Positions 3,215 through 34,262 of a DNA stretch of 58,459 nucleotides are shown here, piece by piece. The translations under genes were made by a program, and so were the position numbers. The notes under the pieces are model-generated. The model was not told the origin of the DNA. It made no database searches and saw nothing but the letters and a program-made list of their open reading frames with translations. The stretch covers positions 1-58,459 of the forward strand of contig CADCVH010000130.1 of the NCBI GenBank assembly GCA_902806085.1, read 5' to 3'. Numbering within the stretch: the first letter of the stretch is position 1; every line of letters starts with the position of its first letter. This DNA comes from an uncultured Rubrobacteraceae bacterium (GTDB lineage Bacteria; Actinomycetota; Rubrobacteria; Rubrobacterales; Rubrobacteraceae).

Positions 3215-4075
3215 ATGGCTAGCGCAACCGCGGCGAAGGGCGGGGCGGGCAAGGGCACTTTAGGCGCCGTACTGTTCTACGTCTTTTTGACCATCTTCGT
3301 CCTGGTCAGCACCTTCCCGCTGATCTGGATCTTCAAGATGAGCATCATCACCCGCAGCGAGCTCTTCCGGTCGCCCCCGACCCTCCTGCCGGCCAACCCG
3401 ACCGGCTCCGAGTACGCGCAGATCTTCGGGGACGCGGCCTTCCAGCAGGCGCTCATAAACAGCGTCATCATCTCCGGGGTGACGACCGTGATCTGTCTGT
3501 TCTTCGGGGCGATAGCGGCCTACGCCATCGCCCGCCTGAGGTTCGGCTTCAAGGGTATCATCATGACGCTGATACTTGCGATCAGCTTCTTCCCAGGAGT
3601 TGCGATCATCGCCCCGCTGTTTATCCAGTTCAGCACCTTCGGCATCATCGACACTCTCGCGTCTGTCATCATCACGGACGTGGTCTTCGCCTTGCCGCTG
3701 ACGGTGTGGCTGCTAGTCGCGTTCTTCAGGGAGTTGCCCAGGGACTTGGAGGAGGCCGCCAAGGTGGACGGGGCGACGACGGTCCAGGCGTTCCGCAAGG
3801 TGATCGTGCCGCTGGCCGCACCGGGCGTCTTCACGACGGCGATCCTCACGTTCATCTTCGCGTGGAACGAGTTCCTGTTCGCGACGACGTTCCTGCTCAC
3901 GCCGCAGACCCAGCCGGTGACGGTCGTGATCCCGAACTTCGCCAGCCAGTACACGACGGACTACGGGGCGCAGGCGGCGGCGGCGGTGGTGGTGACGGTG
4001 CCGCTGGTGATCATGGTCCTGATCTTCCAGCGCAGGATCGTCTCTGGCCTGACGGCCGGGGCCGTTAAGGGTTAG
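3215..4075 (+). CDS. Sugar ABC transporter permease (MalG/UgpE type)
   Basis: Second membrane subunit of the importer. It has six predicted helices and an intact EAA loop (LEEAAKVDGATTVQAF, then KVIVPLA) near residues 183-206. The start codon lies two bases after the stop of the upstream permease, so the two are translationally linked. The conserved tail ends in GLTAGAVKG, typical of MalG/MsmG proteins. With the partial ATPase and the Tat lipoprotein this completes a four-gene carbohydrate uptake operon. The last bases of the gene contain the ribosome-binding site I assign to the next gene. Confidence 0.95.
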   Translation: MASATAAKGGAGKGTLGAVLFYVFLTIFVLVSTFPLIWIFKMSIITRSELFRSPPTLLPANPTGSEYAQIFGDAAFQQALINSVIISGVTTVICLFFGAIAAYAIARLRFGFKGIIMTLILAISFFPGVAIIAPLFIQFSTFGIIDTLASVIITDVVFALPLTVWLLVAFFRELPRDLEEAAKVDGATTVQAFRKVIVPLAAPGVFTTAILTFIFAWNEFLFATTFLLTPQTQPVTVVIPNFASQYTTDYGAQAAAAVVVTVPLVIMVLIFQRRIVSGLTAGAVKG

Positions 4076-4076
4076 C

Positions 4077-5039
4077 CTGGAAACGGACCATCAGAGGGAG
4101 AAGCTCTGGGCCAGGAACATCGAGCCCGGGCGGAGGCTGCACTCCAGCTTCCTGGCGGTGGACGCCGCGGTTCGTAAGGACAGCCGCGGCGCCCCCTACC
4201 TCTCCCTGAAGCTGGTGGACCGGACGGGCTCCGTGGACGCCCGCATGTGGGGCCACCTCCCGGAGGACCTGGTGCAGCAGATCCCGGACCCGGCGTACGT
4301 GGAGGTGGAGGGCCAGGCCCAGGAGTACCGCGGCACGCTGCAGGTAAAACTCGACCGCGTGCGGGTCATGCGCCGGGACGAGGTGGACGAAGAGGACTAC
4401 CTGCCCGCCACCGAACAGGACCGCCGCGCCCTGGCCTCCGAGCTCGAGGAGGCCGGACGGACGCTCGAAAACGAGGACCTCCGCCAGCTCTTCGAGCTAA
4501 TGGTCTCGGACGAGGACTTCTGGGAGGCGTTCTGCGAGGCGCCCGCGGCCAAGGGGATGCACCACGCCAGGATCGGCGGCCTCCTGGAGCACTCCGTGGG
4601 TTGCCTCAGAATCGCCCGCTCCCTGGCCGAGATCTACCCCGTCGACCGCGACCTCTTGTTCTTTGGGGCCATCTTCCACGACGTGGGCAAGGTCCGCGAA
4701 CTCTCCTGGGATGGCGGGGGATTCGCCTACACGACCGAGGGACGCCTCCTGGGCCACGTGGTTATCGGGGAGCGCCTCGTCCTCTCCTACATAAGGATGC
4801 TGCCCGCGTTCCCCGATGACTTGCGCCTGAGGCTCTCGCACGTCCTGATCTCGCACCAGGGCGAGACCGAGTACGGCTCCCCCGAACGCCCGAAAACCCT
4901 GGAAGCCCTGCTCGTCCACCTCATAGACAACCTCGACGCCAGGGCCGCGATGTACCTCGAGTCCACCGAGAACGTCAGCCCCGGCGGCTGGAGCCACCAC
5001 GAAAACCCCCTCCGCCGCGCCCTGTACGTGCCCGAGTAG
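4077..5039 (+). CDS. 3'-5' exoribonuclease YhaM-like: OB-fold plus HD domain
   Basis: Predicted RNase of the YhaM/CBF1 type. An N-terminal OB-fold (pattern GAPYLSLKLVDRTGSVDARMW) would bind nucleic acid. A C-terminal HD hydrolase domain carries HH (MHHARIGGLLEHS), the HD pair in FFGAIFHDVGKV, and a later His-Asp set (LLVHLIDNLDA). The first canonical start is GTG 4158, but that would cut off the conserved OB-fold beginning (NIEPGRRLHSSFLAVD), which is open in frame back to a stop at 4050. No ATG, GTG or TTG occurs in that interval. A CTG at 4077 with AAGGG five bases upstream is my best guess, so the start is uncertain. It follows the sugar permease closely but probably belongs to RNA turnover, not transport. 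Confidence 0.85.
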   Translation: METDHQREKLWARNIEPGRRLHSSFLAVDAAVRKDSRGAPYLSLKLVDRTGSVDARMWGHLPEDLVQQIPDPAYVEVEGQAQEYRGTLQVKLDRVRVMRRDEVDEEDYLPATEQDRRALASELEEAGRTLENEDLRQLFELMVSDEDFWEAFCEAPAAKGMHHARIGGLLEHSVGCLRIARSLAEIYPVDRDLLFFGAIFHDVGKVRELSWDGGGFAYTTEGRLLGHVVIGERLVLSYIRMLPAFPDDLRLRLSHVLISHQGETEYGSPERPKTLEALLVHLIDNLDARAAMYLESTENVSPGGWSHHENPLRRALYVPE

Positions 5040-28318: not shown

Positions 28319-29572
28319 TCAGTCCGCCGTTCGCATCGTTCGGCTCATCGCTCCAAGCAAGGCGGTGAGCAGCAGAAGGCCACCAGCCGCCAGGAACACC
28401 GCCGTCAGACTAAGCTCCACCAGTACCCCGGCTATCACGTAGGAGATCGGGTCCAGGGCGACGGCCGAGAACATCGCGAGGCTCATGACCCTTCCGGTCA
28501 GACCCGGCCCGGAACGCTCCTGCAACCAGGAGATATTCACGACGGCCATGAAGCTGGCCGTCATCCCGATCAGCGCGGCGAGGCTACCCGCCACGAGTAG
28601 GTTTGGCGAGAAGGCCAGACCACCGACGCCGATGCCCAGCGCCGCTGTGCACACCAGTTCTATGAGACCACGCCGCCGGATACGCGTACTTGAACCGGCG
28701 GCCACGGCCCCGACCAAAGGGCCAACCCCGCCCACGGCAACCAGCGTGGCGAACGCGCCGGCACCCCCCAACCGTGACTGCGCGAGAAGGGACCCTCCGA
28801 CGTAGATCGGTCCTGCCATAGAAAGGTTTATGCCGACCAGGATGAGCATTATCGTTCTGATCACGGGATCCTTCCACGCGTACCGCGCCCCCTCGACGAG
28901 GGCAGAGAGGGCACCCGTGTCCTCCTCGTGGGCGGCCTCCTCTCTCTCTGTGCTTCCGGGCGTGGTCGTTGCGGAGGGGACCGACCGGACTACCACGGCC
29001 AGTATCAATGCGGAGACAAAGAAGAGTATGGCGTTGGCTCCGAGGTTGATCCAGAGGCCGAAGAGCGCGAGTAAAAGCCCCGCAAGCGCGGGCCCCAGTA
29101 CGCCGCTGATCTGCTCGACGCCTTGCACCAGAGCGTTTGCGGCCTTGAGGCCATCCCGATCCACCAGGGATGGCGTAACTGACATCGAGGCCGGATAGTA
29201 GAGGGCATCAAGGGCGCTCAGTCCCCCCGCAAGCAGGTAAATGTGCCAGACTCGGGTGGCGTCCGTCACCACGAGGAGCATGAAGATGCCCATCAACACG
29301 GCGCGCACCACATTGGCAGAGGACATCACCGATACCGGCGACAACCTATCGCTCAGTACCCCGCCCAACGGCGTCAGCACGATACCCGGTATCGATGCCA
29401 CGGCGAGGACGGTGCCCAGCGCCGCACCCGAATCGGTGATCCCCAACACGAGCCAAGTCAGGGAGACGAGGAAGGCCTGGTCGGCCAGCATCGCTAGGCT
29501 GGTCCCGATCCAGACGAGCCTGAAAGGTCGGACCCTTAGCGGCGCAAGAAGCGGGAAGTCGCGCGTGACCAT
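28319..29572 (-). CDS. MFS transporter (EntS/MFS_3-like exporter)
   Basis: A 417-residue major facilitator with twelve predicted helices. The N-terminal FRLVWIGTSLAMLADQAF and the loop GGVLSDRLSPVSVM match the MFS_3/EntS group that exports siderophores and drugs, and the central cytoplasmic loop is charged (TEREEAAHEED). I chose ATG 29572, preceded by GGTGGTGAA; the longer frame adds a non-conserved leader. It is divergent from the XRE regulator at 29705 and marks the edge of the less GC-rich island. A role in exporting the product of the peptide cluster, or in self-resistance, is inference from position. Confidence 0.9.
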   Translation of the reverse strand: MVTRDFPLLAPLRVRPFRLVWIGTSLAMLADQAFLVSLTWLVLGITDSGAALGTVLAVASIPGIVLTPLGGVLSDRLSPVSVMSSANVVRAVLMGIFMLLVVTDATRVWHIYLLAGGLSALDALYYPASMSVTPSLVDRDGLKAANALVQGVEQISGVLGPALAGLLLALFGLWINLGANAILFFVSALILAVVVRSVPSATTTPGSTEREEAAHEEDTGALSALVEGARYAWKDPVIRTIMLILVGINLSMAGPIYVGGSLLAQSRLGGAGAFATLVAVGGVGPLVGAVAAGSSTRIRRRGLIELVCTAALGIGVGGLAFSPNLLVAGSLAALIGMTASFMAVVNISWLQERSGPGLTGRVMSLAMFSAVALDPISYVIAGVLVELSLTAVFLAAGGLLLLTALLGAMSRTMRTAD

Positions 29573-29639
29573 TTCACCACCGTTTCTCGGCTTGAAGGAG
29601 CCGTATCGTCGCCGTTTCTGACTTACACGTGTCGTAGTA

Positions 29640-29669
29640 TTGCTTAAACACAAGCGTTCATGGTATCGT
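29640..29669 (+). promoter_or_regulatory. Predicted promoter for the XRE/ImmA/peptide operon
   Basis: TTGCTT (29640-29645) and TATCGT (29664-29669) with an 18-base spacer lie 35 bases before the XRE gene. The 132-base divergent interval (29573-29704) is distinctly AT-rich. It probably also holds the promoter of the MFS gene on the other strand, so an autoregulatory operator here is likely. Confidence 0.45.
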
Positions 29670-29704
29670 ATTTGAAACATGATAGCCCTAGCGGAGAGAT
29701 CAGC

Positions 29705-30361
29705 ATGCACATAGCCGAACGGTTCGAAATCCTACTGGCGGCTCATCCCCGCCATGACGGTAGGACGTGGAGTGGCCAGGAGATAGACGAGGCGACTAAT
29801 GGCGTTGTGACGCGTTCTTACGTGACCAACCTCCGGAAACGCAGGATCGAGAATCCCGGATACGAAAAGCTGCGGGCGATAGCTAAAGTGATCGGATTCC
29901 CGCCGGAGCTGTGGTTCGACGAAGATCTGTCATCAGCCTCGAGTGCGTGGATGGAGCCCGATCGGGAACCCGTTGGCATCGCCGGTAAGGTGACGCATTT
30001 AATGGGAACGCTAAGGAACGAGGCGACCGGCGAGGCATACTCGGATGCCGACGTGGCGCGCCTGAGTTTCGGGCATCTAAGCGAGGAGGATGTCGAGGCT
30101 ATAAGGACAGGCAAGCTGACCGATCCATCCGTCGACCAGATCACCGCGTTCGCGGATGTTTTTGGCGTACACCCTTCCTACTTTCTACACGGGACAGGGA
30201 GCCTTCCGCTTCTCGACCAAGAGGCGATGGAGATATTCCGGGATGAGACCGTTAGCGCGATAGCGCACAAAAGCCTTCACCTTCCGGGGAGAGAGAAAGA
30301 AATGATACTAGGTATCATCCGCCAATTCGAGGATTCGCGGGGCGGCGCGGATGGGCGTTGA
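29705..30361 (+). CDS. XRE-family helix-turn-helix regulator
   Basis: A 218-residue DNA-binding protein. The N-terminal XRE domain (about residues 1-75) has helix 2-turn-helix 3 in WSGQEIDEATNGVVTRSYVTNLRKRRIENP, followed by YEKLRAIAKVIGFPPELWF. A second, similar helical domain (EEDVEAIRTGKLTDPSVDQITAFADVFGVHPSYFL) looks like a duplicated XRE fold. ATG 29705 has GGAGAG seven bases upstream. It overlaps the ImmA-like gene by 11 bases. This XRE plus ImmA pairing usually forms a repressor and its anti-repressor protease. Confidence 0.85.
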   Translation: MHIAERFEILLAAHPRHDGRTWSGQEIDEATNGVVTRSYVTNLRKRRIENPGYEKLRAIAKVIGFPPELWFDEDLSSASSAWMEPDREPVGIAGKVTHLMGTLRNEATGEAYSDADVARLSFGHLSEEDVEAIRTGKLTDPSVDQITAFADVFGVHPSYFLHGTGSLPLLDQEAMEIFRDETVSAIAHKSLHLPGREKEMILGIIRQFEDSRGGADGR

Positions 30362-30989
30362 AAGTCCTCCAAGCTTTCGCGGCCTTTTGCCTATCAAGCT
30401 AGAACAAGTAAGACGCTGGTTAAACAGCAGCAGGATTGCAGGGGGCGACCCGACCGCATCTCGCGGTTTCCTAACCCCGGAGGAGTTCCAGCAGGAACTC
30501 GTAGTCCTTGGTTTGTCAGATCGACAATTTGGGTCCAAGGAGTACGCCAGCGCGCTGGGCAAGCATTTGGGTTTGAGCGTATCGATAGACATCGTACCCG
30601 ACGCCACGCATCCCCTACTTTCGCGGGAGTTGGCGCGCAAGGGCGTCACGGGCGAAATACGCTACAGGGCCGACCTCGCTAGGGCCCAAATCATCGTCCC
30701 TGGGAGCCTCCCGCCGCTAGCCCTCATCTTTACTGTGCTACATGAGTTAGGGCACTTGGCCGCGGGCGATTTGTTCGTCGACACGTGCCAGGCCAGCCTA
30801 CTGTGTCTGGAGTCACCTGCCTTCCCAACGCTCGAAGTTCCGAACGAAAGGCGGTTGGCTCAACGAGCACCTTTCGCGCAGCCCGTAGATCGGGAGCACG
30901 AGGCCGACCTGCGCGCGGGATACGCTTTCGTGGCGGGGTGTTTGGGTAGCGAGAATCCTTACGCTCAAAGGATGTACGATATCCTTTGA
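30351..30989 (+). CDS. ImmA/IrrE-like metallopeptidase
   Basis: A 212-residue zinc peptidase-like protein. HELGH at residues 131-135 lies in FTVLHELGHLAAGDLF, and the downstream acidic segment DREHEADLRAGYAF (E184) gives the expected third ligand. ImmA-type proteases cleave XRE-family repressors to induce mobile or stress genes. The ATG lies within the end of the XRE gene, and its stop overlaps the TTG of the next gene. Together these form a translationally coupled regulatory cassette. Confidence 0.85.
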   Translation: MGVESPPSFRGLLPIKLEQVRRWLNSSRIAGGDPTASRGFLTPEEFQQELVVLGLSDRQFGSKEYASALGKHLGLSVSIDIVPDATHPLLSRELARKGVTGEIRYRADLARAQIIVPGSLPPLALIFTVLHELGHLAAGDLFVDTCQASLLCLESPAFPTLEVPNERRLAQRAPFAQPVDREHEADLRAGYAFVAGCLGSENPYAQRMYDIL

Positions 30990-32347
30990 ATACCTTCCAG
31001 GAACAGTCTCTGGTTTTGGCGTTGGTGTGCCTCGTGGCATCGTTATTCTTCCTTGGGGTAACGCGTTCTTCGCGAAGCACGTGGTTCAGCGGCGTCATAA
31101 CGATGAACCTCGTGGCTCTCGCCATTATCTTCGGGACCTTTGCCGCTGTAGAGATGAACGGAGAGCGCGCCGAGATAGCCGCTGCTCTCGTCTCCGAACT
31201 GCCTTTCGAAGCCGTCGTGTCCTGCTTGTGCGTGGCACAGGCGGGGTATCTGCCCCTACGAACAGGAGCGCCACCGCTTGCCGTAGTCGCGGCCCGGCCC
31301 AAACTGCGGTTGCTTCTTGCTAGCGCTGGGGTGGTACTGCCCGGTGCGTGGGTGCTGGCCGCCACATTCGGTTTCGTGTGGCCTTCGTCCGCCGTGCAGG
31401 CATTGGCCCCGGCTCCGTTAGAGTCCGTTATATTCAAGTGGACCCTGATGGTTCCGGCAATGCTTTTTGCCGGTCTCGCCGCCATCCTTTTTCTGAAGGC
31501 CGCCAGATCCGACTCCCTCGATACGAGACTGCGCTTCAAGAACGCTGCTTTCGCATTTGCCACGTTCTGCCTTGCGCTCGTTGCGCTCGAGTCAGCCATG
31601 TTTGCTGGCGCCCGAGCTTGGTTGCCGGGTGATCTCCGTGTAGCGATAACGAGTTCGCTTTTGACTGTGGAGACTTGCCTTGCCATCGCGTGCGTGGCCG
31701 CATTCCTGCTCGGGCTCGCCCTACGTTACACACCAGCCATCGCTGTACCCACGGTTCGACACGTGGCAACGCGGTGGCTTCCCGAGCAAGACCGCTTCGA
31801 CTCGCATAGGTGGCATGCCGTCGTCGGCGGCGTCGCCCGTGGGGTCGTGATCGCTTCTTACCGCATAGGAGCCGCCGCAAATCGACTAGGCCTCTCTCGG
31901 TTGGAGACCGAACGCGCCGTTGGTACCGTGCAGCATATCGCCGCGATACGAAACGGTGTTTGCGACGCTGCTAAGGTCACCCCGCAGAGGGCCCGCGATC
32001 TCCACGTATTGCAGTCCGAAGTCGTGAAAGACGCTGAATTGATTAGCAAATTGGACAAGATCGAGTCGCATGACCTCATGTCGCGCTTCGGAGCCGTGCA
32101 TGCAGCCTCCTTGCACGTCGAACTCGAAGCCGCCCTGGCCCTGATGGGGGACGTATCTACCAATAGTAACGGCCATGACGACCAACCCCTCTGGTTCTAC
32201 CTCGCGGCCGTGGGCGCTTCGGACGTGGGCCTTATCGACGAGCGCCGAACAACGACGATTCTCGACAACAAGATGCGGCACAACGAGGTACTCAGGGCCT
32301 ATACTGAAGCGGTCACGTCATCGAGGGACGGCTCTTACCATCCCTAA
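30986..32347 (+). CDS. Seven-helix membrane protein with cytoplasmic C-domain (MAB_1171c-like)
   Basis: A 453-residue protein. Seven hydrophobic segments fill roughly residues 8-245 (first SLVLALVCLVASLFFLGV, last TVETCLAIACVAAFLLGLAL), followed by a soluble, mostly helical domain of about 200 residues. I recall proteins of this shape (MAB_1171c family, called putative transporters) standing next to XRE and ImmA genes in actinobacteria, which matches here. TTG 30986 overlaps the preceding stop (TTGA). A sensory role upstream of the protease is plausible: ligand detection, then ImmA activation, then derepression. That mechanism is inference. Confidence 0.75.
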   Translation: MNTFQEQSLVLALVCLVASLFFLGVTRSSRSTWFSGVITMNLVALAIIFGTFAAVEMNGERAEIAAALVSELPFEAVVSCLCVAQAGYLPLRTGAPPLAVVAARPKLRLLLASAGVVLPGAWVLAATFGFVWPSSAVQALAPAPLESVIFKWTLMVPAMLFAGLAAILFLKAARSDSLDTRLRFKNAAFAFATFCLALVALESAMFAGARAWLPGDLRVAITSSLLTVETCLAIACVAAFLLGLALRYTPAIAVPTVRHVATRWLPEQDRFDSHRWHAVVGGVARGVVIASYRIGAAANRLGLSRLETERAVGTVQHIAAIRNGVCDAAKVTPQRARDLHVLQSEVVKDAELISKLDKIESHDLMSRFGAVHAASLHVELEAALALMGDVSTNSNGHDDQPLWFYLAAVGASDVGLIDERRTTTILDNKMRHNEVLRAYTEAVTSSRDGSYHP

Positions 32348-32450
32348 TGCCAGAGGAGATCCTTAAAGCCTCAGCATAGTTCGACCGAAAACCGGATACG
32401 CGTCGTTTGTATGACGGTGTTGATTAACCGCTGCACAGGAGGAGGGGCAC

Positions 32451-32669
32451 ATGAGCGTAGAGAGCCACACCCCGGATGTGGGAGGGGCCCAAAACAAGAC
32501 TATGGAGTTGGTGTCGCAGGCGAGGCAACGCACGTTGGAAGAACTGAGCTCGCTAACTTGCAACGATTCCGCTTCCTATGCTGCGGCGATCGCGGGCAAC
32601 ACACCCCACGTTACTCTTCCGAACGGCATTACGATAGTAATGCGCAAGTGCGGCGCTTGGTCGTGTTGA
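32451..32669 (+). CDS. Candidate RiPP precursor peptide with C-terminal cysteine
   Basis: A 72-residue peptide. A strong ribosome site (AGGAGGAGGGG) lies seven bases before ATG 32451. The N-terminal half is polar and helical like a leader (NKTMELVSQARQRTLEELSS). The C-terminal part turns to small and hydrophobic residues and ends in residues 67-72, C-G-A-W-S-C. It has three cysteines (37, 67, 72), the last being the terminal residue. The terminal Cys plus the cysteine-decarboxylase homologue 1 kb downstream suggest conversion to an aminoenethiol and an S-[2-aminovinyl]-cysteine ring. The six-residue span equals that of the thioviridamide C-terminus (T-V-A-F-H-C), as I recall it. It resembles no precursor family I can name. 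Confidence 0.68.
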   Translation: MSVESHTPDVGGAQNKTMELVSQARQRTLEELSSLTCNDSASYAAAIAGNTPHVTLPNGITIVMRKCGAWSC

Positions 32670-32712
32670 GTTCGACGGCCGCCTGAACCGTACCATCCAA
32701 GAACCAAAGTCG

Positions 32713-33666
32713 ATGAAAGAAGATGTGCGAGAACGTGTTGTGGCTCCGGTGCCCAGATGGCTGGACAACGCTGAAGTATGTCGAGAGGCAATCGCGGCGG
32801 CCGGCGATTTACCGTGCGCGAGTGGAGCACAGTTCGAACGCTTCTACGCGTACCTGCTGGTCGACGAGCCGATCATACAATTGATGCCCGGATACTTCCT
32901 TCCTCTGTGGGCTGAAGACGAGGTGCAGCCGGAGGCACTGCACGCCCTGGCGGTGGCCGCAAAGCTCGAGAACGCGCGAAATCGCTGGTTGGATGAGATG
33001 GTAGATGACCATCGAGCCCTTGGGTCGACGGTGTCCTCCCAAGAATTGAACAAGGCTATAGTAAGGCTGACAAGCCGCCAGTATGCCAGGGTACTGCCGC
33101 ATCACCCGGCCGCTTGCTTTTTCGAGCAGCTTGCGATGCTCTACTCTCGGCACTCGCTCTCCCTGGTTTTCGACGGCAAGAGCCAGGCGTTGCTTGGGCG
33201 GTCGCTTACGCTCTCGGACTACGAGGTCCATGCGAAGGCGCGCCATAGCTCCGTGCGCGCTCCTTTGGACGCGCTCTTGACCCTAGTGGGTGCCGACGAA
33301 GATCAACGCGCAAGAGCGACGAATTCCTGGCATGCGTGGGGACTCGGAGCCCAGCTCTACGATGATGCCCTGGACGTCGAGGAGGATTTTCGTAACGGGG
33401 CCTTGACCTGGACCGTGGCTCGTACCCTGGAGTGTCTTGGGGGCCGCACCCCCGAGAATCCGGACGAGTTCTACGCGGTTGCCCTTCGGGAGGGTATCGT
33501 CACCCGAACGCTCAGGCGGGCCGAGGGCCACTTTGGCCAGGCCGCCGAACTAGCCCACTCAAGTTTCCCACGTTGGACATCCGTCCAACACGGTTGTATG
33601 AGGCAAGCTCGGACGCTGCGAGAAGATTACGAACATCTACTCGAGTCGGAGCCTCTCGACCATTGA
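32713..33666 (+). CDS. Class I isoprenoid-synthase-fold protein in the peptide cluster
   Basis: A 317-residue, almost entirely helical protein. Two acidic motifs match the metal-binding helices of trans-prenyl synthases: LDEMVDDH (residues 93-100) and YDDALDVEEDFRNGALTW (216-233, second DDxxD plus a following Asp). Overall similarity to ordinary chain-elongating synthases is low, and the GGKRxRP motif is missing, so the substrate is open. It follows the peptide gene by 43 bases and overlaps the flavoprotein gene by four, so it is probably a tailoring enzyme (prenylation or cyclisation of the peptide or of a co-substrate). ATG 32713 has no strong ribosome site. Confidence 0.7.
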   Translation: MKEDVRERVVAPVPRWLDNAEVCREAIAAAGDLPCASGAQFERFYAYLLVDEPIIQLMPGYFLPLWAEDEVQPEALHALAVAAKLENARNRWLDEMVDDHRALGSTVSSQELNKAIVRLTSRQYARVLPHHPAACFFEQLAMLYSRHSLSLVFDGKSQALLGRSLTLSDYEVHAKARHSSVRAPLDALLTLVGADEDQRARATNSWHAWGLGAQLYDDALDVEEDFRNGALTWTVARTLECLGGRTPENPDEFYAVALREGIVTRTLRRAEGHFGQAAELAHSSFPRWTSVQHGCMRQARTLREDYEHLLESEPLDH

Positions 33667-34262
33667 GCGGTTCGCACGCTACTGTTACTGACCGCCTACT
33701 GGTCGGGGTGTCCGGCTCCATAGCCATCCTCAATTTGCCGACTTATCTGGTCGCCCTTCAGGCTACATTCGCTAAGGAAGTGCGCGTAATAATGACGGTC
33801 GGAGCCGCCCAGTTACTCTCGCCATCGACCGTCGCCTTACTCTGCGATGAGGTTCTGCTGGATGAAAAACCCACCGCACAAAAGAAGCCCGGTCACGTCG
33901 AGTTGGCCAACTGGGCCGACGTGTTTTTGGTCTTGCCCGCCTCGGCCAACATCCTGGGCCAAGTTGCAAATGGACTCGCCCAAAACCTCCTCACCACTAC
34001 GATCATGGCCTCCCCAAAACCCGTAATATTCTGCCCGAACCTGAACCGGACAATGTGGAGCAAAAAGGCTGTTCAAAGAAACCTCCGGACCCTCGCAGAA
34101 GACGGGCATTTAGTGGTAGAGCCGGAGCAAGCGCCGGCGTATGAGGTCGGGACGGGTGGGGTAGCCGACACCCTCGTGCTTCCAGAACCCGCTGTTCTGA
34201 TTCGGCATCTTGAAAACCTGCTGCAACAAATCGGGGAGGACTCTGTTGCGGCCGAGAAGTAA
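33663..34262 (+). CDS. EpiD/LanD-like flavin-dependent peptidyl-cysteine decarboxylase
   Basis: A 199-residue HFCD flavoprotein. The FMN-binding start is LLVGVSGSIAILNL, the active-site His78 is in HVELANWAD, PASAN is at 92-96, and the PNLNRTMW motif at 125-132 matches the PxMNxxMW signature of EpiD, LanD and CoaC. The His-to-Asn spacing (78 to 128) equals that of EpiD (67 to 117). The fused CoaB synthetase domain of bacterial CoaBC is absent, which argues against coenzyme A synthesis. TTG 33663 overlaps the upstream stop (TTGA) with GGAG upstream; the longer frame is a shadow. Its probable substrate is the terminal cysteine of the 72-residue peptide. UbiX-like flavin prenyltransferase is the alternative. 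Confidence 0.85.
   Translation: MSGSHATVTDRLLVGVSGSIAILNLPTYLVALQATFAKEVRVIMTVGAAQLLSPSTVALLCDEVLLDEKPTAQKKPGHVELANWADVFLVLPASANILGQVANGLAQNLLTTTIMASPKPVIFCPNLNRTMWSKKAVQRNLRTLAEDGHLVVEPEQAPAYEVGTGGVADTLVLPEPAVLIRHLENLLQQIGEDSVAAEK

Follow-up and report, generated by a model that had tools for sequence, protein, structure and literature searches.

A Rubrobacteraceae gene cassette joining a Cys-terminal peptide, an isoprenoid-fold enzyme and a LanD-like flavoprotein: a candidate ComQX-like RiPP pathway

What is made by a locus in which a short peptide ending in cysteine is followed by an isoprenoid-synthase-like protein and a LanD-like flavoprotein? The question is raised by a contig of 58,459 nucleotides (CADCVH010000130.1, C130 in our set), hereafter the window, from an uncultured Rubrobacteraceae bacterium (assembly GCA_902806085.1, 4.41 Mb in 133 contigs). 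An earlier interpretation made from the letters alone, here called the sequence-only reading, had proposed a pathway for a ribosomally synthesised and post-translationally modified peptide (RiPP) with an S-[2-aminovinyl]-cysteine (AviCys) end. The explanation we favour, with a probability of roughly 0.6, is a ComQX-like RiPP that would be prenylated on tryptophan and decarboxylated on its last cysteine by two adjacent enzymes. The consecutive trio that had been described, including its 4-base overlap, is present in full at 32451-34262:

32451..32669, + strand: likely precursor peptide, 72 aa, ending KCGAWSC (strong Shine-Dalgarno sequence, homologues)
32658..32666, + strand: codons of Trp70, Ser71 and Cys72; from conservation, Trp70 is the predicted prenyl acceptor and Cys72 is predicted to be decarboxylated
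32713..33666, + strand: class I isoprenoid-synthase-fold enzyme, 317 aa, with D94xxxD98 and Q214xxD217D218xxD221; a predicted Trp prenyltransferase resembling trans-isoprenyl diphosphate synthases (trans-IDS)
33663..34262, + strand: LanD-like flavoprotein, 199 aa, TTG start, with His78, PASAN and PNLNRTMW; a predicted peptidyl-Cys decarboxylase

The peptide open reading frame (ORF) is preceded by the ribosome-binding site AGGAGGAGG, and the overlap consists of the TTGA common to the stop of the isoprenoid-fold gene and the start of the flavoprotein gene.

That the 72-residue peptide is likely a RiPP precursor is suggested by its homologues. Together with 114 database homologues it forms a set of 115 rows, of which P0219 and P0234 are fragments, and since the rows are interrelated the counts that follow are of non-independent events. 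A terminal Cys is found in 114 of the 115, the exception (P0220) being apparently frameshifted, and Trp stands third from the C-terminus in 112 (all but P0220, P0203 and P0218, the last of which ends ...SSCNC), while the penultimate residue is Gly in 53 peptides, Ser in 29, Asn in 17, Ala in 13 and Thr in 3. In the N-terminal half an Arg-x-Arg-x-x-x-Glu motif is invariant throughout a 113-row alignment from which the two fragments and the frameshifted peptide were excluded. The ratio of nonsynonymous to synonymous change (pN/pS) is 0.37-0.57 among the window and the loci L013 and L014, and 0.54-0.76 in more distant pairs, where change approaches saturation. At eight loci (the window, L013, L014, L016-L019 and that of genome G008) the peptide ends in Cys in seven cases and in Trp-x-Cys in six. 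The sequence-only reading had tied its proposal to a frame conserved in related genomes, and conserved it is. Because of the 114 peptide homologues, the pN/pS values and the recurring gene order, we regard the cassette as beyond chance. The peptide of L019 (G035; 3998-4294) has no terminal Cys and ends NRYTR, its stop codon and the isoprenoid-fold start overlap, and the contig runs out before any LanD.

In full, the gene order on the + strand is XRE-family regulator, ImmA-like protein, membrane protein, peptide, isoprenoid-fold protein and flavoprotein, with an ORF of the major facilitator superfamily (MFS) divergent on the - strand. Counting the window's own genome, isoprenoid-fold homologues were detected in 8 of the 197 genomes searched, every one of them from the Rubrobacteraceae. 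Homologues of the XRE, ImmA and membrane-protein genes accompany them at seven of the eight loci (the window, L013, L014, L016, L017, L018 and L019), and in the eighth genome, G008, the upstream part lies on a separate contig, where the membrane-protein and peptide genes were found together with the very start of the enzyme gene. The flavoprotein gene is located 3' of the isoprenoid-fold gene in seven of the eight; in G035 (L019) the contig stops inside the isoprenoid-fold gene. The cultured species Rubrobacter tropicus (G006) and R. radiotolerans DSM 5868 (G012) appear to carry the cassette. A scan of one genome per species over 84,980 species returned four loci, of which three carry the title Rubrobacteraceae and the other 'Actinobacteria bacterium', with no other named lineage, and missed both R. 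tropicus and R. radiotolerans, so its sensitivity was limited. Among 396 genomes of the phylum there were ten matches, two of them weak (G018 and G176), that of G018 being by eye a degraded remnant. A protein-database search with the enzyme gave 237 homologues at E <= 0.001, and among the 120 matches listed 52 are 62-99% identical to it and the remainder 45-52%.

What, then, could the two enzymes do to this peptide? EpiD/LanD enzymes decarboxylate the C-terminal cysteines of RiPP precursors. The window's flavoprotein matches PF02441 (9.6e-25, scored on a longer frame), and its best match in the PDB is MrsD (1.5e-43), with EpiD at 8.3e-21. In the alignment with these two proteins it carries the catalytic His as well as stretches like the LanD motifs PASAN and PxxNxxMW, and the His of its GHVEL aligns with a position that differs between two EpiD entries (His versus Asn), a difference which we take to be H67N. 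A housekeeping CoaBC assignment was rejected: TIGR00521 is matched at 1.3e-36, but with 126.5 bits against a cut-off of 219.7, and the best solved match is MrsD. The flavoprotein is thus predicted from its sequence, and likely, to decarboxylate the terminal Cys of the peptide. For RosD, another LanD, PMC12291118 describes decarboxylation as shown to leave a C-terminal enethiol.

Across 119 genomes the flavoprotein has eight full-length homologues of at least 54% identity, its own genome's copy included, seven of them in this cassette and one (56%) in G016; apart from a fragment in G004, the remaining matches are 25-40% identical. The G016 homologue lies within a LanT-LanD-LanC-LanB cluster (PF04738 2.3e-186, PF05147 1.9e-60) whose peptide ends ITSYSLCTPGCAKTGSFNSYCC, an epidermin-type end. 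The sequence-only reading had also leaned on the flavoprotein not regularly occurring without the peptide. A Cys-terminal peptide stands beside LanD at all seven cassette loci with a visible LanD and in G016, hence for all eight full-length homologues, a count that does not include the G004 fragment. The earlier claim that a Cys-terminal precursor and a LanD-like enzyme form a RiPP pathway finds good support in this conservation, in the MrsD match and in the G016 context. The G016 cluster (L057, 5788-13456), from the same family, is a class I lanthipeptide cluster with LanT, LanD, LanC, LanB and an epidermin-like LanA ending SFNSYCC. The G004 fragment (C434, L058, 342-566) is a partial second LanD-like piece of 85 residues at 53% identity, perhaps a decayed copy. 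In G016 a second, divergent flavoprotein (C1:1272075-1273032, 25% identity) adjoins a HopA1-family gene, which suggests a class V-like or thioamitide-like cluster.

For the isoprenoid-fold protein, the AlphaFold2 (AF2) model (pLDDT 89.6) predicts a class I isoprenoid-synthase fold, and its Foldseek/VIA matches are trans-IDS proteins and Ord1. D98, D217, D218 and D221 are invariant in a 57-row alignment, and D94 and Q214 are kept in at least 90% of rows. These residues make up the first and second aspartate-rich motifs (FARM and SARM) and the Gln ahead of the latter; a Gln before the SARM is common in plain synthases too, and hence non-exclusive. The likeness to ComQ and PalQ is one of fold and motifs. 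A PDB profile search with the enzyme returned a geranylgeranyl diphosphate (GGPP) synthase (0.0084), with Ord1 not among the matches. PalQ of Paenibacillus alvei has FARM residues D89/D93 and a Gln three residues ahead of the SARM Asp (PMC10853753), and the Trp that ComQ modifies is the third or fourth residue from the end of its peptide (PMC5331326). Because an isoprenoid-fold enzyme and a near-invariant Trp occur jointly, ComQ/PalQ-type Trp prenylation is proposed, and the model predicts a trans-IDS-like Trp prenyltransferase resembling ComQ, PalQ and Ord1. The sequence-only reading had recognised the isoprenoid fold rightly; it gave the enzyme no role and missed the near-invariant Trp. A search with the single enzyme sequence against the PDB (phmmer) gave Csx30 (0.35) as its sole match, which is irrelevant. 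The weak G176 match (L035, 7462-8661, - strand) is a distant isoprenoid-fold gene (FQLIDDLADAEED) that follows a 48-aa ORF ending ...KPLLPW; this pair resembles PalQ/PalX, and no second copy was found in 151 genomes of G176's family.

Two observations weigh against Trp prenylation. The fold comparison places ordinary diphosphate synthases above Ord1, and the R. radiotolerans peptide (P0203), ending ...ACSPYVTC, has kept the terminal Cys without the Trp. They fit an ordinary diphosphate synthase or a maker of small terpenoids, with LanD acting on the peptide and the Trp being retained by a preference of the decarboxylase for a hydrophobic-small-Cys end, since the majority of fold matches are diphosphate synthases and R. 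radiotolerans retains the enzyme despite its Trp-less peptide. We consider this unlikely: Trp in 112 of 115 peptides exceeds a general hydrophobic preference (the LanA-like peptide of G016 has Tyr there), the genes for peptide and enzyme occur as a tight pair, and the FARM is DxxxD (D94/D98), as in PalQ (D89/D93), not DDxxD. Prenylation of sulfur, on the Cys thiol or on the enethiol, would accord with a terminal Cys slightly more conserved than the Trp (114 versus 112 of 115) and with R. radiotolerans keeping the one and losing the other, but it would leave the conservation of the Trp without explanation. The available parts of PMC13290415 and PMC5331326 describe the trans-IDS-like fold as Trp-directed only, and that of PMC5331326 gives Cys isoprenylation as undetected in prokaryotes. 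We therefore hold S-prenylation to be very improbable.

The AviCys end of the sequence-only reading is also disfavoured. In such a peptide the enethiol would close on a Ser or Thr dehydrated by an enzyme that has escaped recognition, perhaps the isoprenoid-fold protein itself. In favour of this there are the combination of a LanD-like flavoprotein with a C-terminal Cys, the LanB and LanC that adjoin the G016 homologue, and the Ser or Thr that 43 of 116 peptides (the 115 rows plus that of G008) have fourth from the end, at the usual SxxC position. However, no acceptor is conserved, 24 of these 116 peptides lack Ser, Thr and Cys altogether among the eight residues preceding the last Cys, and the Asp motifs for isoprenoid diphosphates are retained in the enzyme. 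Moreover LanB (PF04738), LanC-like (PF05147) and HopA1 (PF17914) families gave no match in the eight cassette genomes, which are partly draft (79-100% complete; four at least 93% complete with <= 5% contamination), whereas G016, included in the search, was positive for all three. The absence of LanB and LanC claimed for the window thus holds assembly-wide for these families. YcaO was found in four of nine genomes searched, with the copy of the window's genome on another contig. With neither a dehydratase, LanC or HopA1 match nor a conserved acceptor, the AviCys ring was rejected as the principal explanation, and we rate it as quite unlikely.

In the pathway we favour, Trp prenylation with Cys decarboxylation, the N-terminal part of the peptide with its RxRxxxE motif would guide both enzymes. 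The flavoprotein would turn the last Cys into an enethiol by oxidative decarboxylation, a loss of CO2 and 2 H (-46 Da), and the trans-IDS-like enzyme would place a prenyl group on C3 of the Trp, as ComQ and PalQ do. The mature C-terminal lipopeptide would then leave the cell, perhaps via the MFS protein, and our guess is that it serves as a signal in the manner of ComX, sensed by the membrane/ImmA/XRE triad, which may in turn control the conserved promoter-like block described below. In a bolder version, to which we give little credence, C3 prenylation would produce an indoleninium, and the enethiol of the decarboxylated Cys two residues on, not a backbone nitrogen as in ComX, would trap it at C2; the small prenylated thioether ring so closed would define a new RiPP class and serve actinobacteria as a ComX-like pheromone, sensed by the same triad.

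The upstream XRE/ImmA/membrane cassette and divergent exporter noted from the sequence were likewise found (28319-32347):

28319..29710, - strand: MFS exporter ORF, longest frame (PF07690 3.7e-26)
29640..29673, + strand: promoter/operator-like block 5' of the XRE gene, TTGnTTAAACA-N8-CATGGTATCGTATTT (7-locus alignment)
29705..30361, + strand: XRE-family regulator, start MHIAERFE (PF01381 4.6e-5; alternative ATG at 29660)
30351..30989, + strand: ImmA-like HEXXH metallopeptidase with HELGH (PF06114 weak, 0.042, missing the cut-off)
30986..32347, + strand: multi-pass membrane protein, about seven hydrophobic segments by hydropathy and an extra C-terminal part

The MFS start probably lies further in than that of the longest frame, near 29575. 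A divergent MFS homologue is present in L013, L014, L016 and L018; in L017 (3520-4377, - strand) and L019 (395-1237, - strand) its position is taken by another divergent ORF, 280-285 aa long, that matches nothing in Pfam. HELGH (residues 131-135 of the ImmA-like protein) is invariant at seven loci, and the AF2 model of the membrane protein is too poor for use (pLDDT 62, pTM 0.39). The block, TTGnTTAAACA...ATGGTATCGTAT, is common to seven loci, close in five and looser in L017 and L019, and overlaps the possible earlier XRE start (29660); from its sequence we infer a promoter or operator role.

Among 39 genomes of the family the membrane protein has eight strong matches, every one in an isoprenoid-fold cassette, and weaker ones (23-31% identity) in G012, G022, G024, G030 and G038. 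All four stretches read (G022, G024, the second copy of G012, and G030) hold XRE/ImmA/membrane triads in other contexts, and no isoprenoid-fold or LanD homologue was seen in them, pointing to the triad as a general regulatory module; that it senses a signal is a guess. The triads of L080-L083 adjoin other genes, such as a cytochrome P450 in L080 (G022). Faint BLAST matches to the window peptide in L081 and L082 (28-29 bits) are antisense to a 464-aa frame, have no Trp-x-Cys and were set aside as chance. A defence function was rejected as well: PADLOC gave only the capH regulator (3e-8) and a weak RmrA match (0.0098) for the XRE protein, and zero for the other five proteins.

The less GC-rich DNA reported for this region is borne out, with 57-61% G+C in six 1-kb intervals (29-35 kb) against 62-74% for most of the window; five or six other intervals are similarly low (58-62%, for example 49-50 kb), so the dip is real, though not unique. 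On the 3' side the cassette is bounded by a 711-aa ORF from 34363, topoisomerase-like by eye.

How does this cassette compare with known systems? It is a variant that combines enzymes of two familiar kinds, and their joint chemistry is absent from our literature search results: no title or opening of an abstract couples LanD with a prenyltransferase of the isoprenoid fold, in a search whose reach mostly excluded subscription papers. As in the MrsD and EpiD systems, a Cys-terminal peptide lies near a flavoprotein with their sequence, catalytic His, PASAN and PxxNxxMW, but here no dehydratase or cyclase partner was found and the substrate would end in Trp-x-Cys. The G016 lanthipeptide cluster, from the same bacterial family, has a flavoprotein 56% identical to the window's, together with LanB, LanC, LanT and an epidermin-like LanA, in a genome without an isoprenoid-fold homologue. 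With PalQ/PalX the cassette shares a trans-IDS-like enzyme, the FARM, the Gln before the SARM and a RiPP precursor; according to PMC10853753, however, PalX has an NHLP leader and itself ends in Trp, and the cluster is described as three genes without LanD. PalQ also rejects C-terminal extensions. The Bacillus comQXPA system likewise sets a small precursor beside a class I isoprenoid-fold enzyme, with a Trp third (or fourth) from the C-terminus and the FARM retained. Here, in contrast, the peptide ends in Cys, LanD is added, the second Asp motif is intact rather than degenerate as in ComQ, and an XRE/ImmA/membrane triad in an Actinomycetota host accompanies the pair; no ComP-type kinase or ComA-type response regulator family was matched among the cassette proteins (Pfam, NCBIfam). 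The natural variants ending GWGC, TWAC, CWSC and YVTC, and the Cys-less L019 peptide, are ready substrate tests.

LanD enzymes are familiar from pathways with a dehydratase, and enzymes of the ComQ type from the making of lipopeptides in Firmicutes; in this cassette one of each appears to share a single precursor, with no recognisable dehydratase. If this is true, the product would be a RiPP that carries both a prenylated Trp and, at its C-terminus, an enethiol either free or trapped in a new way, made by a short three-gene pathway apparently present in the cultured R. tropicus and R. radiotolerans, and ComX-like chemistry would extend into the Actinomycetota.

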